From the IMG/VR virus record IMGVR_UViG_3300025407_000112, positions 1-26,137 of that record: a DNA stretch of 26,137 nucleotides; one strand, given 5' to 3'. This document shows, piece after piece, positions 20,100 through 25,376 of this stretch. Both the position numbers and the translations under genes were made by a program. Each line of letters opens with the position of its first letter. Within the stretch, counting starts at the first letter, position 1. The notes beneath the pieces were generated by a model, which saw only the letters and a program-made list of their open reading frames with translations, was not told where the DNA came from and did not search any database. This DNA comes from a virus.

Positions 20100-20813
20100 A
20101 TGGCATTACCTAAAATTGATTACCCTACAATCAACATTGCAATCCCACCTGAAAATAAAACCTATATGTTTCGCCCGATGTTGGTGAAAGAGGAAAAGCT
20201 TTTGTTGATGGCGAAAGTTTCCGAAGATGATACAGATATTCTACAGGCGATTAAACAGGTCGTTACAAACTGTTGCATTGAAACATCATTAGATGTTGAT
20301 ACACTTCCGCTATACGCGCTCGAGTATGTGTTTATTAAATTGCGTGGCTTTTCTGTGGGTGATGTTATTAGCGTTTCATATCGCGATTTAGAAGATAACA
20401 AGAGCTACGATTTTACAGTCGACTTAAACAAAGTTGAAATCAAGTTCCCAGAAGGCATTGATAAGATAATCAAGATCACTGATACTTCAGGAATCGTTAT
20501 GAAGTATCCTTCGGCTGGTATTTACTCTGATAAGACATTCCTTAAAGCTGAAGGTGAGGAAACATTCTATCGCCTTGTTGTTCGTTGTATTGATCAGGTA
20601 TATGATGCAGAAAACGTATATGAAGGCAAGGACTTTGAGGAAGATGCTATTCTTGAGTTCCTTGAATATATGGATATTCCAAGCTTTGAGAAAGTGCGTG
20701 AGTTTATGCTTAATTTGCCTTCGTTGTATTACAAAATTGAGTATACTAATTCAAACGGAAACGCTAGAACAATTGAGTTAAAAACTCTATCCGATTTTTT
20801 TACCTTGCGCTGA
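20100..20813 (+). CDS. 26: Baseplate hub assembly protein gp26 (zero-frame product)
   Basis: A 237-aa product of the T4 gp26/gp51 baseplate protein type (T4 gp26 is 208 aa), involved in assembling the central hub. Family-like segments are KTYMFRPMLVKEEKLLLMAK, ILQAIKQVVTNCCIETSLDV, YALEYVFIKLRGFSVGDVIS, IKITDTSGIVMKYPS and EFLEYMDIPSFEKVREFMLN. The ATG at 20100 has GGAG upstream. The gene ends ...SDFFTLR-stop (UGA 20811-20813). The two Phe codons before the end lie in a run of seven T (20795-20801) that forms a slippery heptamer. A -1 slip would replace the last three residues with a 61-residue extension, giving 295 aa. This two-product layout parallels tail-assembly chaperones such as lambda gpG/gpGT, encoded just before the tape measure. 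Confidence 0.85.
   Translation: MALPKIDYPTINIAIPPENKTYMFRPMLVKEEKLLLMAKVSEDDTDILQAIKQVVTNCCIETSLDVDTLPLYALEYVFIKLRGFSVGDVISVSYRDLEDNKSYDFTVDLNKVEIKFPEGIDKIIKITDTSGIVMKYPSAGIYSDKTFLKAEGEETFYRLVVRCIDQVYDAENVYEGKDFEEDAILEFLEYMDIPSFEKVREFMLNLPSLYYKIEYTNSNGNARTIELKTLSDFFTLR
20795..20801 (+). promoter_or_regulatory. Slippery heptamer T_TTT_TTT for -1 frameshift
   Basis: In the gp26 frame the codons read GAT TTT TTT ACC, so the heptamer T TTT TTT is in register for simultaneous -1 slippage of P- and A-site tRNA-Phe. Reading resumes TAC CTT GCG CTG AGT in the -1 frame. It is 9 nt before the zero-frame UGA. Confidence 0.75.
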
Positions 20814-20986
20814 GTCACAATACCCTAGAGAATTACTATCAAACGAATTTCTCTTTGGCTCAGCACCATAAATATTCGATATCGGAAATAGAAAGTTGGA
20901 TAGTTTTTGAACGTGATATCTATGTTGAAATGTTAGTAGCCTATTTACGAGAACAAGAAGAACGACAAAAACAACAGGCTAATTAA
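20801..20986 (+). CDS. -1 frame C-terminal extension of gp26 (frameshift product tail)
   Basis: The -1 frame reads YLALSHNTLENYYQTNFSLA, then QHHKYSISEIESWIVFERDI and YVEMLVAYLREQEERQKQQA, N, stop: 61 residues. It fills the whole 172-nt space between the gp26 stop and the next gene. Upstream the frame is blocked by TAG and TGA a few codons before the slippery site. There is no ATG or GTG and no RBS near its beginning; the first TTG is at 20855 and the first ATG is deep inside. Its composition (aromatic and His-rich start, 'E-x-W-x-x-F-E-R-D-x-Y' core, charged helical end) resembles the T segments of frameshifted tail-assembly chaperones. The TAA stop overlaps the ATG of the next hub gene (TAATG). 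It should be annotated as part of a 295-aa fusion starting at 20100. Confidence 0.78.
   Translation, partial: YLALSHNTLENYYQTNFSLAQHHKYSISEIESWIVFERDIYVEMLVAYLREQEERQKQQAN
20809..20864 (+). promoter_or_regulatory. Two-tier stem-loop downstream of the slippery site
   Basis: GCTGAGTCA (20809-20817) pairs with TGGCTCAGC (20856-20864): nine pairs with one G-U. It begins 7 nt after the heptamer, within the usual 5-9 nt spacing of stimulatory structures. Inside the 38-nt loop AGAGAA (20827-20832) pairs with TTCTCT (20849-20854), extendable by two pairs past a single bulged T. The zero-frame UGA lies in the 5' arm. Confidence 0.65.
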
Positions 20987-23256
20987 TGGCTAAAAAAGAA
21001 TCAGGCGAAGATATTCTCCGAGCGATTATGGAGAAAGGTGGGCAAGGTCCAAAAGGCGCTGCAGCCCTGCAAAGAGCAGCCGAAGAACTAGCCAAAGCTG
21101 CTCAAGCCATAGAACAACAGCCAGAGATAAAAGAAACTCTCGTTTCAACTCTAGAAAACGATATTCCAACTGCAGAAGCTGATGAGCCTGTACAAGTTGG
21201 TGAATCTCCCCGTAAAAAGTTTGCTAAGAAATTAGGCAAAGCTGCTCTTAAGAAAATGTTCCCAACGACATATTCTGGCGTTGAGGCATTACGTAAGTTA
21301 TGGAAAGAATCCAACGATAAAGAGCAAGCTGAGAAGAAACGTGATACAGCGGAAAAGAAACGCAAATATGAAGAGATCATAGACAATCTTAAAGATGCTA
21401 ATGATTCATTGCGTGAAATGGTTTCGCTACAGCAAGAAACCAGTTCTATATTATCTGGGGTCGCTGAAGCTTTAGCTAAAAACAATAAAGGTGGTGGTGG
21501 ATTATTAGGTAATCTTCTTGGTGGTGGAAAAACCATCGGAAGCTCATTACTAAGATCAATCAGTGGTATTGGTGGTATAATGGCTGGTACAGCGCTTTTG
21601 GGTGGCGCTGCAAAGCTTTTCTTAGGGAATAATGAAAATAAAGCTCCAGCTACTGGTGAAACTGGATCAGCGCCACCGCCCGCTCCACCTCTCTCAACAA
21701 CTTCAGATACAATACCAGCTTCTTCAACCACGCCATCATCTGGTGGCGGTGGAACAACTCCACCCGCTGGCGGCAATGTTTCTATTGCGGAAAGTAAAGA
21801 GTCAGCAGCTGTAAAAGAAGCAAAAACAAAGCAAACAAAAGCTGAAGACATTTTAAAAATTAAAGCTGATCAAATTCGTTTCAATTCTGATAAGCTTACA
21901 TTTGATGTTGAAACTTTTAGCATTGAATCAAAGCAAGAGCAACAGCAATCACAACAGCAACAGCAGCAACCACAAACTCCACAACAACAAGCGCAGCAAC
22001 AACAAGCTCCGAACATTGTTAACAATCCTAATGCGAATAAACCAACACTTTCGCCCGAAGAAGCTGGTTCGAGAAATGCACCTGGAACAACTGCACCAAG
22101 AAACGCTCCAATGTCGAGCGGTATCACTGGCGGACCTGCGGCTGCTGGACCTCCTGGATTATACAGACCACAATATAAGCTTTCAGAAGCAGATTTGAAC
22201 GATGATGTTTTAAATACTATCGCTGGCGAAGCTAGATTAAAAGATCCAAAAAGCGTTGATGCTGTTATCAATAATATGTTTAACAGACTTGGCGCGAAGG
22301 GATACGGTCCATCAGGAAATTTACAACAAGTTGCTCGCGCTCCAGGACAATATGAAGGTTATAGAATAGCGTCTGAAAAAGAAAAAGAGATGCTTCGTGA
22401 AAGAATTAAAGCGATCGCATCGGGTAGTGTTGAAGATATTACGCATGGCGCAGATCAATACAGAGCTGCTTCTTATGTTTATGGAGCAGGCGCAGGTAAA
22501 ACATTCGCTAATCTTGCTGCGTCTCAAGGTAACTTAAATCTTGGTGGTAACATTTATGCAAGAACTAAAAATGCTCCCGTTGGTCCATACGCCGCATACG
22601 CAACATTAGGTATTCAACCGCCTCCAGATGTTTTAGCTCGTGCAAAACAAGAACAGCAACAACAGGCTAAAACAGAAGCAAAAACGCAAGCAGAATCAGA
22701 AACAAAACCGCCAGTAACTCCTGCAGCTAATACAGCTCCCACCGCTCCTGCGTCTGGTAGCCGATTGAGTCAATACAAAGGTGAGTTCGGCTCATGGGAA
22801 TCAAATGGTCAGGGTGGTGTTAAGTTTGTTAAGGCGACTGACTTACAAACATACAAGGGCGAACAAGGTAGATGGGAAAAGAATGATACTGGAGGAGCAA
22901 AGTTTGTTCCTGCCAAAGCTGGTGACATTATATCATCCCCTAATCAAATGGTTGACAAAGCGCCAGCAAAACCAGCTGCTGGAATTACACCAGCTTCTGG
23001 GGGTCAATTTGAAGAAAAAGGTTATTTTGACGTCACTGGAAAAACGCCTAATCCTCCAACACCAAAAGCGAACAAAGATTCAAATGCAAAACCACATCCG
23101 CGCCGAGTTGAAAGCCATTCGCCTCAACCTTCTGATCCAGGCGGTAACTTAGTTTTCAGAATCGCAGCGTTATTACCGTATCTTGCTATTGCTGCTGTAA
23201 CAGGCGAACAAAGAGCAGCGCATTCTATAATGCAAAATAGAAGAAGACGCTACTAA
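20986..23256 (+). CDS. Hub/tape-measure-like protein with SleB-type cell wall hydrolase domain
   Basis: A 756-aa modular protein. Residues 1-60 are an Ala/Glu-rich helix. Residues 76-108 (RKKFAKKLGKAALKKMFPTT, YSGVEALRKLWKE) are shared with the next gene product. Residues 110-165 form a charged coiled coil. Residues about 183-214 are a Gly-rich hydrophobic, possibly membrane-inserting, segment. Residues 215-395 are Pro/Ser and Gln-rich linkers. Residues about 400-530 resemble cell-wall hydrolase SleB (Hydrolase_2): NTIAGEARLKDPKSVDAVIN with candidate catalytic Glu415, NMFNRLGAKGYG and ITHGADQYRAASYVYGAG. Two 26-residue repeats follow (594-645), then another hydrophobic segment near 722-739 and an Arg-rich end. 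Likely role: hub component that enters and cuts peptidoglycan, in the gp29 tape-measure place of T4. The ATG overlaps the -1 frame stop. Confidence 0.68.
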   Translation: MAKKESGEDILRAIMEKGGQGPKGAAALQRAAEELAKAAQAIEQQPEIKETLVSTLENDIPTAEADEPVQVGESPRKKFAKKLGKAALKKMFPTTYSGVEALRKLWKESNDKEQAEKKRDTAEKKRKYEEIIDNLKDANDSLREMVSLQQETSSILSGVAEALAKNNKGGGGLLGNLLGGGKTIGSSLLRSISGIGGIMAGTALLGGAAKLFLGNNENKAPATGETGSAPPPAPPLSTTSDTIPASSTTPSSGGGGTTPPAGGNVSIAESKESAAVKEAKTKQTKAEDILKIKADQIRFNSDKLTFDVETFSIESKQEQQQSQQQQQQPQTPQQQAQQQQAPNIVNNPNANKPTLSPEEAGSRNAPGTTAPRNAPMSSGITGGPAAAGPPGLYRPQYKLSEADLNDDVLNTIAGEARLKDPKSVDAVINNMFNRLGAKGYGPSGNLQQVARAPGQYEGYRIASEKEKEMLRERIKAIASGSVEDITHGADQYRAASYVYGAGAGKTFANLAASQGNLNLGGNIYARTKNAPVGPYAAYATLGIQPPPDVLARAKQEQQQQAKTEAKTQAESETKPPVTPAANTAPTAPASGSRLSQYKGEFGSWESNGQGGVKFVKATDLQTYKGEQGRWEKNDTGGAKFVPAKAGDIISSPNQMVDKAPAKPAAGITPASGGQFEEKGYFDVTGKTPNPPTPKANKDSNAKPHPRRVESHSPQPSDPGGNLVFRIAALLPYLAIAAVTGEQRAAHSIMQNRRRRY
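22765..22920 (+). repeat. Two tandem 26-codon repeats in the SleB-type hub protein
   Basis: Residues 594-619 and 620-645 share the pattern L-x-x-YKGE-x-G-x-WE-x-N-x-x-GG-x-KFV-x-A. They follow the hydrolase domain, so a small binding module, for example for cell wall or a hub partner, is possible but not shown. Confidence 0.75.
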
Positions 23257-25376
23257 TGAGTGTGATCGGTACAATACTTAAAACATCAGCAAAAGTTGCA
23301 GGTAGAGCAGGATTGATGCTCGGTAAAGCTGCACTTAAAAATATGTTTCCTAGTGTGTATTCTGCTCCAAGTAAAATCAGAAGTGTTTATAGAGAGCTGA
23401 CTGGTAAGAAAAATATAGAAACTGATTTTGATGCACTTATGGCGTTTGATGCTAGTGTTACAGTAACAAATAAGCTACTGGAACAAAACATAGAAGTTCA
23501 AAAGCAACAAAACGATGCCATAGAACAACTTGTCGCCGCTATTAAAAACATGAAAAAACAAGATGGGGGTGGAATATTAGATACAGGCGATCTAATTGGT
23601 AATCCATTTAAAAGAAAAAATCTGAAAGAACCAGTAAAAGAACCAATAAAAGAAGAACATGTTCCTAAAGGTGAGGGAACAAAAACAGCTGCTGAACTTA
23701 AAGAAGCTGAGGAAGCTGCAATTGCTGCTAAGGAAGCGGAAAAAATAGCCGCAAAAGAAACAAGCTTAGTTGGCAAAGTAACTGGTAAAATTGGTAAAGG
23801 TATTAAAGCAACCAAAGAAGTAATCATGGCTGCTGTGAAAAAAATTATTGGTCCAAAGATTGTTTCTATTGTTGCTAAACTTATTCCAGGCGAAGGCTTA
23901 ATTGCTGGTATTGGTTTTGGTGTTTGGCGTGCAGTCACTGGTGACTGGAAAGGTGGAATAGCCGAAGTCGTAAGTGGTGCAGCTTCAACTGCTCCTGTTG
24001 CTGGTACTGCAATTGCTATAGGCATACAAGCTGGCTTATTAGCACGCGATGTATACGAAGCGGTATACGGCGTATTTCCTGAAGATGATCCAGAGGCTGG
24101 CGAACGACTTAAAGCTGTTAAAGATGCTGTTGTTGAGTTTATTATGGCTCATATGCCAATGGCAAAGAAAGATGATAAGAAACCAACCACAGATATAACA
24201 CCTGCTATTGGTGGCGGCGCTGCTGTCGCGACTGGTGCTGGTGCTGAAGTATTAAATGCAGCAATCAAAACAGAGAAGGATGGGAGCAAACTCATATCTT
24301 CACCAGAGATAGAGTTTAATGCTAAGGATATCAGCTTCAATGTAAAAGATATGCTGATTCGTTATAATGAATTTAAAGTAAATGGTCAAACAGTTACTGG
24401 ACCACAAGCTGGATTAGCTGGTGCACAAGTTGGTGATGAAACAAATAGATTAGATAATCCAGCTGACACTGGGTATAGAGCTGATCCAAACGATCGAAGA
24501 CCAGAAAATATACCAGATGAACTTCCATCAATAACTCCAATGCCTGGAGAAACACAACAACATCTTGCAGCTCGTATAAGACAAGTTGCACCACATTTAA
24601 AAAATGAACAATGTGTAACGTTAGCAAAAGCAGCTGTTGGTAGTAATGATAGCGTACAAACATGGCGTCGTGGTTCAAATGCTGTAACCAATGAATTGCC
24701 CATCGGTACACCAGTTGCTACATTCATGGATAGAAGCGGTAAATCTTCAACAAGATATGATGCTGGTGGTACAGGATCTCCAGGAACAGGAACAACGCAT
24801 GCTGCTGTTGTTGCTGGATACGTAAAAGATAAAGATGGTAAAACTACAGGCATGCAAGTGTGGGAGCAATATACTGGCTCTGGTGGTCCACGTCTTAAAA
24901 CGTATCCAGTCGATAAAGGATTTGGTGAAAAGAATGCATCAAATTACTTTGCTATTGAACAAGAAAATAAAAAAGGCGAACGTGTTGCTTTGGGTGGAGA
25001 AAACACTGATTATGGTAAATATCTAACAGCACAAAAAGAAGCAGCCAAAGAACAAAAGAAACCTGATCAACAAGCACCTGTTCAACAGGCTCAGTTGGCG
25101 CAACAAAAACCACCACCTCCACCTGCACCTCCACCTGCAGCTCCCGTTCAACAGGCTCCGAGCAAACCAGCTCCACCACCACCAACGATTACGTCTAAAT
25201 ATCGTACACCAGAAAAACCAGCTGCGCCACAAGCAGCACAATCGGTGCCAACAAAACCAATTCCTCCTACTTCACCAATCAGTGATAAGGGGAATCCTAA
25301 AACGGCATCAGCAGCTGATATTTTAGGTGCACCATCGAATGTTTTAATTGGAGCTTATCTTCACACTGCCGCATAA
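23256..25376 (+). CDS. Hub/tape-measure-like protein with NlpC/P60-like (BPSL0067-type) domain
   Basis: A 706-aa modular protein, partly paralogous to the preceding one. Residues 20-47 (LMLGKAALKNMFPSVYSAPS and following) repeat the LGKAALKxMFPxxYS block. Residues about 56-100 form a coiled coil. A Lys/Glu/Ala-rich linker (120-190) is followed by two hydrophobic stretches (about 198-225 and 238-263) that could insert in a membrane. Residues about 430-568 show a cysteine-peptidase pattern: KNEQCVTLAKAA (Cys453), IGTPVATF, GTTHAAVVAGY (His515), MQVWEQYTG and ASNYFAIEQ. This fits the BPSL0067/NlpC-P60 amidase superfamily. The C-terminal 120 residues are Gln/Pro-rich, with runs of prolines. The ATG overlaps the previous stop (TAATG). 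Expected role: second peptidoglycan-cleaving component of the hub; tape-measure function is possible but unproven. Confidence 0.68.
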   Translation: MSVIGTILKTSAKVAGRAGLMLGKAALKNMFPSVYSAPSKIRSVYRELTGKKNIETDFDALMAFDASVTVTNKLLEQNIEVQKQQNDAIEQLVAAIKNMKKQDGGGILDTGDLIGNPFKRKNLKEPVKEPIKEEHVPKGEGTKTAAELKEAEEAAIAAKEAEKIAAKETSLVGKVTGKIGKGIKATKEVIMAAVKKIIGPKIVSIVAKLIPGEGLIAGIGFGVWRAVTGDWKGGIAEVVSGAASTAPVAGTAIAIGIQAGLLARDVYEAVYGVFPEDDPEAGERLKAVKDAVVEFIMAHMPMAKKDDKKPTTDITPAIGGGAAVATGAGAEVLNAAIKTEKDGSKLISSPEIEFNAKDISFNVKDMLIRYNEFKVNGQTVTGPQAGLAGAQVGDETNRLDNPADTGYRADPNDRRPENIPDELPSITPMPGETQQHLAARIRQVAPHLKNEQCVTLAKAAVGSNDSVQTWRRGSNAVTNELPIGTPVATFMDRSGKSSTRYDAGGTGSPGTGTTHAAVVAGYVKDKDGKTTGMQVWEQYTGSGGPRLKTYPVDKGFGEKNASNYFAIEQENKKGERVALGGENTDYGKYLTAQKEAAKEQKKPDQQAPVQQAQLAQQKPPPPPAPPPAAPVQQAPSKPAPPPPTITSKYRTPEKPAAPQAAQSVPTKPIPPTSPISDKGNPKTASAADILGAPSNVLIGAYLHTAA

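Follow-up and report, generated by a model that had tools for sequence, protein, structure and literature searches.

A -1 frameshift in the lambda G/GT and P2 E/E' chaperones was reportedly described by Xu, Hendrix and Duda in 2004. In both systems a slippery heptamer lies near the end of a short ORF, and the short protein with its -1 extension is encoded ahead of a gene of the hub or tape-measure type. Hub assembly chaperones listed for T4 include gp26 and gp51, the latter needed for assembly but missing from the particle (PMC3004832). Tail assembly chaperone genes of T4-like phages were identified by Vladimirov, Gautam and Davidson (2022, Virology 566:9-15; cited in PMC10885494 and PMC12846349). 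Where it cites that work, the phage Adele paper describes poly-T slippery sequences as already known from the TAC-N genes of T4-like phages (PMC12846349). As summarised in the PRFect paper, separate short and long gene copies occur in some T4-like phages (PMC10885494). The citing passages name no genes; on our reading, the genes meant are gp26/gp51. The Vandenendeviridae/Andersonviridae chaperone locus, as presented in PMC12846349, likewise has a conserved -1 open frame after a short chaperone gene. As far as these citing passages go, the idea of frameshifted chaperones in T4-like phages is already known (Vladimirov et al. 2022, via PMC10885494 and PMC12846349). The passages on T4-like chaperones in PMC10885494 and PMC12846349 make no mention of a downstream hairpin or an upstream Shine-Dalgarno-like element, and our literature search turned up no paper reporting a frameshift for 'baseplate hub assembly catalyst'. 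What may be new here is the detail of the hairpin with its covariation and of the Shine-Dalgarno-like element, together with how widely the signal is conserved.

In this study, we analysed an IMG/VR contig of 26,137 bases, hereafter the window, in which a gp26 homologue is followed by an open -1 frame. The features of the locus are as follows.

20100-20813, + strand: gp26 homologue, the short (zero-frame) product and proposed TAC-N; 237 aa, stop TGA.
20795-20801, + strand: slippery heptamer T_TTT_TTT, in register with gp26, read from the sequence; T_TTT_TTN in 207 of 212 dereplicated relatives.
20801-20986, + strand: -1 frame extension with the gp51-type C-terminal domain, proposed TAC-C; 61 codons and TAA (20984-20986), PHROG 634.
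20809-20817, + strand: 5' arm of the downstream hairpin, a proposed stimulator, after a 7-nt spacer (20802-20808); from folding and covariation.
20856-20864, + strand: 3' arm of the same hairpin; from folding and covariation, as for the 5' arm.
20827-20832, + strand: 5' arm of an inner helix in the predicted fold of the window; single-sequence fold.
20849-20854, + strand: 3' arm of the inner helix; single-sequence fold of the window.
20986-23256, + strand: next gene, 756 aa, candidate hub or tape-measure client by its position.

The original prediction had placed an in-register T_TTT_TTT at 20795-20801, and the sequence check confirmed it: the gp26 frame reads GA[T_TTT_TTT], that is GAT TTT TTT, and stops three codons later. 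The further claims, a -1 frame open for 61 codons up to the next gene, closed upstream and giving a 295-aa fusion with gp26, also proved correct, and every coordinate holds. The TAA of the extension shares one base with the ATG of the next gene (20986), and upstream of the heptamer the -1 frame is shut by TGA at 20774 and TAG at 20765. The earliest ATG, GTG or TTG in this frame is the TTG at 20855, well within the conserved domain, and none lies ahead of codon 20 in the window. In-register X_XXY_YYZ heptamers are not rare in the window (39 in about 8,400 codon positions), and that at 20795-20801 is the only T_TTT_TTT among them. What counts as evidence is thus the conservation of the heptamer and not the motif alone. 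The differences from lambda and P2 are a larger gp26, a heptamer made up of T throughout, unlike that of lambda, and the presence of a downstream hairpin. The motif also differs from the GTTTTT of the Vandenendeviridae/Andersonviridae locus (PMC12846349), and the window has a single gene with proposed frameshifting where the T4-like phages of the PRFect summary have separate copies (PMC10885494).

The identity of both parts was determined by profile searches. The zero-frame product matched Pfam T4_baseplate (PF12322; E 9.4e-49) and PHROG 150 (E 3.6e-53). The extension, taken as 62 residues from the second slipped codon, matched PHROG 634, 'baseplate hub assembly catalyst' (gp51), with an E of 1.2e-25. 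The same 62 residues had a further, weak match at the end of the profile of the gp26 family, a hint that fusions exist within this family. A tblastn search with the extension gave 552 phage records at E <= 0.01, with matches in cyanophages, Vibrio, Rhizobium, Sinorhizobium, Methylophilales, Pelagibacter and other phages. In close relatives, third positions of the -1 frame hold most of the changes (10 of 12 against locus L004 and 17 of 27 against L007), which indicates that this frame is under protein selection. These comparisons identify the -1 extension as a gp51 domain and no chance ORF. In databases, it is annotated as a separate gene with varying starts or is omitted; the annotated start lies right after the gp26 stop in S-PM2 and about 50 nt further on in S-RSM4. 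The gp51 profile matches start at the heptamer or adjoining it.

We then compared the locus with T4. T4 gp26 aligned over its full length with the family profile (hhalign probability 99.3) and ends at the same Phe-Phe. T4 gp51 matched both PHROGs (150 and 634): its residues 6-187 matched the gp26 profile (probability 93.7) and residues 200-244 the extension profile (E 1.2e-5). T4 gp51 thus consists of a gp26-like region and the same C-terminal domain fused in frame, and needs no frameshift. Gene 26 of T4 lies on the - strand; gene 51 lies on the + strand and precedes genes 27-28-29. The window, by contrast, has one gene and a -1 frame. The view that T4, with separate gp26 and gp51 genes, is another arrangement of the same module was borne out by the profile matches to T4 gp51. 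T4 thus has two genes for the short and the long form, and the phage of the window very probably produces both from one.

To follow the heptamer in relatives, gp26 loci were gathered mainly by peptide patterns from its N-terminal half, which puts no selection on the junction; further loci came from annotated phages, some of them reached via the extension itself. Dereplication at 90% nucleotide identity left 212 loci. Heptamer and frame were conserved, in favour of the original prediction: 207 of the 212 had an in-register T_TTT_TTN with the gp51 domain in the -1 frame, a count, like the others given here, of related loci and not of independent events. The last base of the heptamer was T in 100, C in 98, A in 8 and G in 1. 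In a second set, of MAG contigs, counted with any overlap with the first set retained, the heptamer was found in 40/41 and gp51 in the -1 frame in 41/41. The residue preceding Phe-Phe varied among the 207 loci (Ser 93, Asp 77, Asn 28, Thr 5, Ala 3, Gly 1), and its codon ended in T in every one. The first Phe codon was likewise TTT in all 207, a codon that makes up 69% of Phe codons in the rest of gp26. With codon use in the remainder of these genes as the reference, log10 P was about -45 for the T before Phe-Phe and about -33 for the first TTT, figures that assume independent sites and, the loci being related, show direction only. A fixed T and a fixed TTT despite a varying residue indicate a constraint on the bases and not on the protein.

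The five exceptions comprise one locus cut off right after gp26 and four distant relatives without the heptamer, namely Dickeya phiDP10.3, Serratia phiMAM1 and Salmonella Mutine (Ackermannviridae) and the unclassified Vibrio D495. In these four (L107-L110), which are without the T6 heptamer, gp26 ends in ATT, GTT or CTT, then TTC and one codon. This motif is reminiscent of the Vandenendeviridae GTTTTT and may be a different slip site. In L109, a gp51-like match in the -1 frame follows the end of gp26, with no ATG at the stop. In the MAG contig NVVV01000063.1 (L285), G_TTT_TTT replaces T_TTT_TTT, and gp51 is still in the -1 frame.

The region 3' of the heptamer was examined by RNA folding. In the window, 20809-20817 pairs with 20856-20864 (9 bp), 7 nt from the heptamer, with an MFE of -16.9 kcal/mol and a z of -4.37; 0 of 200 shuffles were as stable. 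The pairing was assessed in a clade of 37 distinct sequences with gp26 identity of at least 37%. In this clade 90.4% of cells were paired, compared with only 21-39% in slid registers, and 0 of 500 shuffles reached the real pairing. Twelve cells were changed on both sides; examples of such compensatory changes are G-C to A-U at columns 20/65 and C-G to U-A at columns 16/69 and 22/63. RNAalifold predicted no consensus structure on the same alignment, so the hairpin rests on the count for the named structure and on single-sequence folds. Over the 207 loci, the mean folding z was -1.73 directly 3' of the heptamer and +0.13 to -0.59 in other folding windows. When synonymous codons were shuffled between sequences with the protein kept, folding energy after the heptamer went from -17.4 to -13.2 in the clade of the window and from -12.6 to -8.1 in the others. 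This cost of about 4 kcal/mol compares with at most about 0.8 in control regions. Outside the clade of the window, the predicted form of the hairpin differs between clades. We propose the downstream hairpin as a candidate stimulator of slippage. Upstream, GGAGG, GAGGG or AGGA was found 8-10 nt before the heptamer in about half of the loci, and the Glu codon at this Shine-Dalgarno-like element was GAG in 78/112, compared with 27% elsewhere; the element is absent from the window. The T before Phe-Phe and the hairpin 3' of the heptamer point to a ribosomal signal.

The reading of programmed -1 frameshifting in the original prediction is supported by the heptamer, its phase and the -1 frame in both sets of loci and by the downstream hairpin. 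We consider it highly likely (about 0.9) that a canonical -1 programmed frameshift yields two tail assembly chaperones in the manner of lambda G/GT, gp26 as the short one and gp26-gp51 as the long one. The heptamer, its phase, the open frame, the homology, the conservation and the hairpin with its compensatory changes are established at the sequence level, and from them we infer the slippage itself, its ratio and a role as chaperones. At the end of gp26, a one-base backward slip by some ribosomes is very probable. Ribosomes translating gp26 would arrive at GAT TTT TTT, where both Phe-tRNAs would re-pair one base back on T_TTT_TTT, helped by the 9-bp hairpin 7 nt downstream. A minority would bypass the gp26 stop, read 61 more codons and terminate at the TAA whose last base is the first of the next ATG. 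The predicted products are gp26 of 237 aa as the majority and gp26-gp51 of 295 aa as the minority, corresponding to TAC-N (as lambda G) and TAC-NC (as lambda GT). During tail initiation, the short and long chaperones may keep hold of the product of the next gene, a candidate hub or tape-measure protein.

Alternatively, gp51 could be a separate gene translated by reinitiation or from an internal start just after gp26, with no fusion made. Databases do annotate gp51 apart, with the differing starts noted for S-PM2 and S-RSM4, and an ATG overlaps or touches the gp26 stop in 33/207 loci; Vibrio CZ01, for example, has TAATG there. The ATG of these 33 loci would allow reinitiation. The first ten -1 codons contain no ATG, GTG or TTG in 124/207 loci. 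An early start with a Shine-Dalgarno in the -1 frame was found in only 2/207 loci. A separate gene also fits poorly with the window, where the -1 frame has no possible start before codon 20, and with gp51 profile matches that begin at or beside the heptamer, and it leaves the fixed heptamer, the T before Phe-Phe and the hairpin unexplained. We regard this alternative as improbable. Rhizobium phage RHph_N34 (L018) and two Vibrio phages (L016 and L017) have TGATG or TAATG at the gp26 stop and keep the T6 run; in these three, frameshift and reinitiation may coexist.

Homopolymer runs can cause polymerase slippage, and the heptamer of the window consists of seven consecutive T, so the fusion might be made by transcriptional instead of ribosomal slippage. 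However, 98/207 loci have only six T and then C, which is short for polymerase slippage, and neither the fixed codon phase nor the close hairpin would be needed by it; this explanation is more doubtful still. That T4 gp51 is an in-frame fusion would also allow the window to show a broken or mis-sequenced copy of a former in-frame gp26-gp51 gene. The same frame relation is found in over 240 contigs and phage genomes, and the third-position changes speak for protein selection on the -1 frame. A broken or mis-sequenced gene is excluded by this recurrence, and we give it a probability near zero. Ribosomal frameshifting remains the preferred reading, and a broader form of it has about an even chance of being right: gp51 of cyanophages and most T4-type phages would be a frameshift extension of gp26 with no gene of its own, signalled by the Shine-Dalgarno-like element, the near-universal T_TTT_TTN heptamer and the covarying hairpin, and T4 would be exceptional in having turned ratio control into two genes. 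The frameshift reading itself would extend the best-known phage frameshift to the T4/cyanophage superfamily with nucleotide-level evidence, and hundreds of cyanophage genomes would carry wrong gp51 starts or miss gp51. It would also give a concrete reason for the joint action of T4 gp26 and gp51, whose function has long been unclear, and make the short/long ratio in T4-type tails testable.

Structures were predicted with alignments built from the window and the scan loci only. The AlphaFold2 model of the extension was all-helical (pLDDT 87) and that of gp26 was of high confidence (pLDDT 91). The gp26 model matched predicted phage baseplate hub proteins; its PDB matches, those to known chaperones included, were all non-significant, and the HK97 tail assembly chaperone 2ob9 was among them (probability 0.28, E 2.0). 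The gp51 model gave no PDB fold match, and sequence searches for solved relatives of the gp26 and gp51 parts gave chance matches only.

The fusion locus sits after the tail tube gene. The 756-aa protein encoded next had no Pfam match at E <= 1 and weak PHROG matches; from the position of its gene, it is a candidate for the client (hub or tape measure). The proteins of 20986-23256 and 23256-25376 resemble each other over about 100 N-terminal residues (LGKAALKxMFPxxYS...; BLASTP E 4e-8), suggesting that these two neighbouring candidate tape-measure or hub proteins have a docking or hub motif in common.
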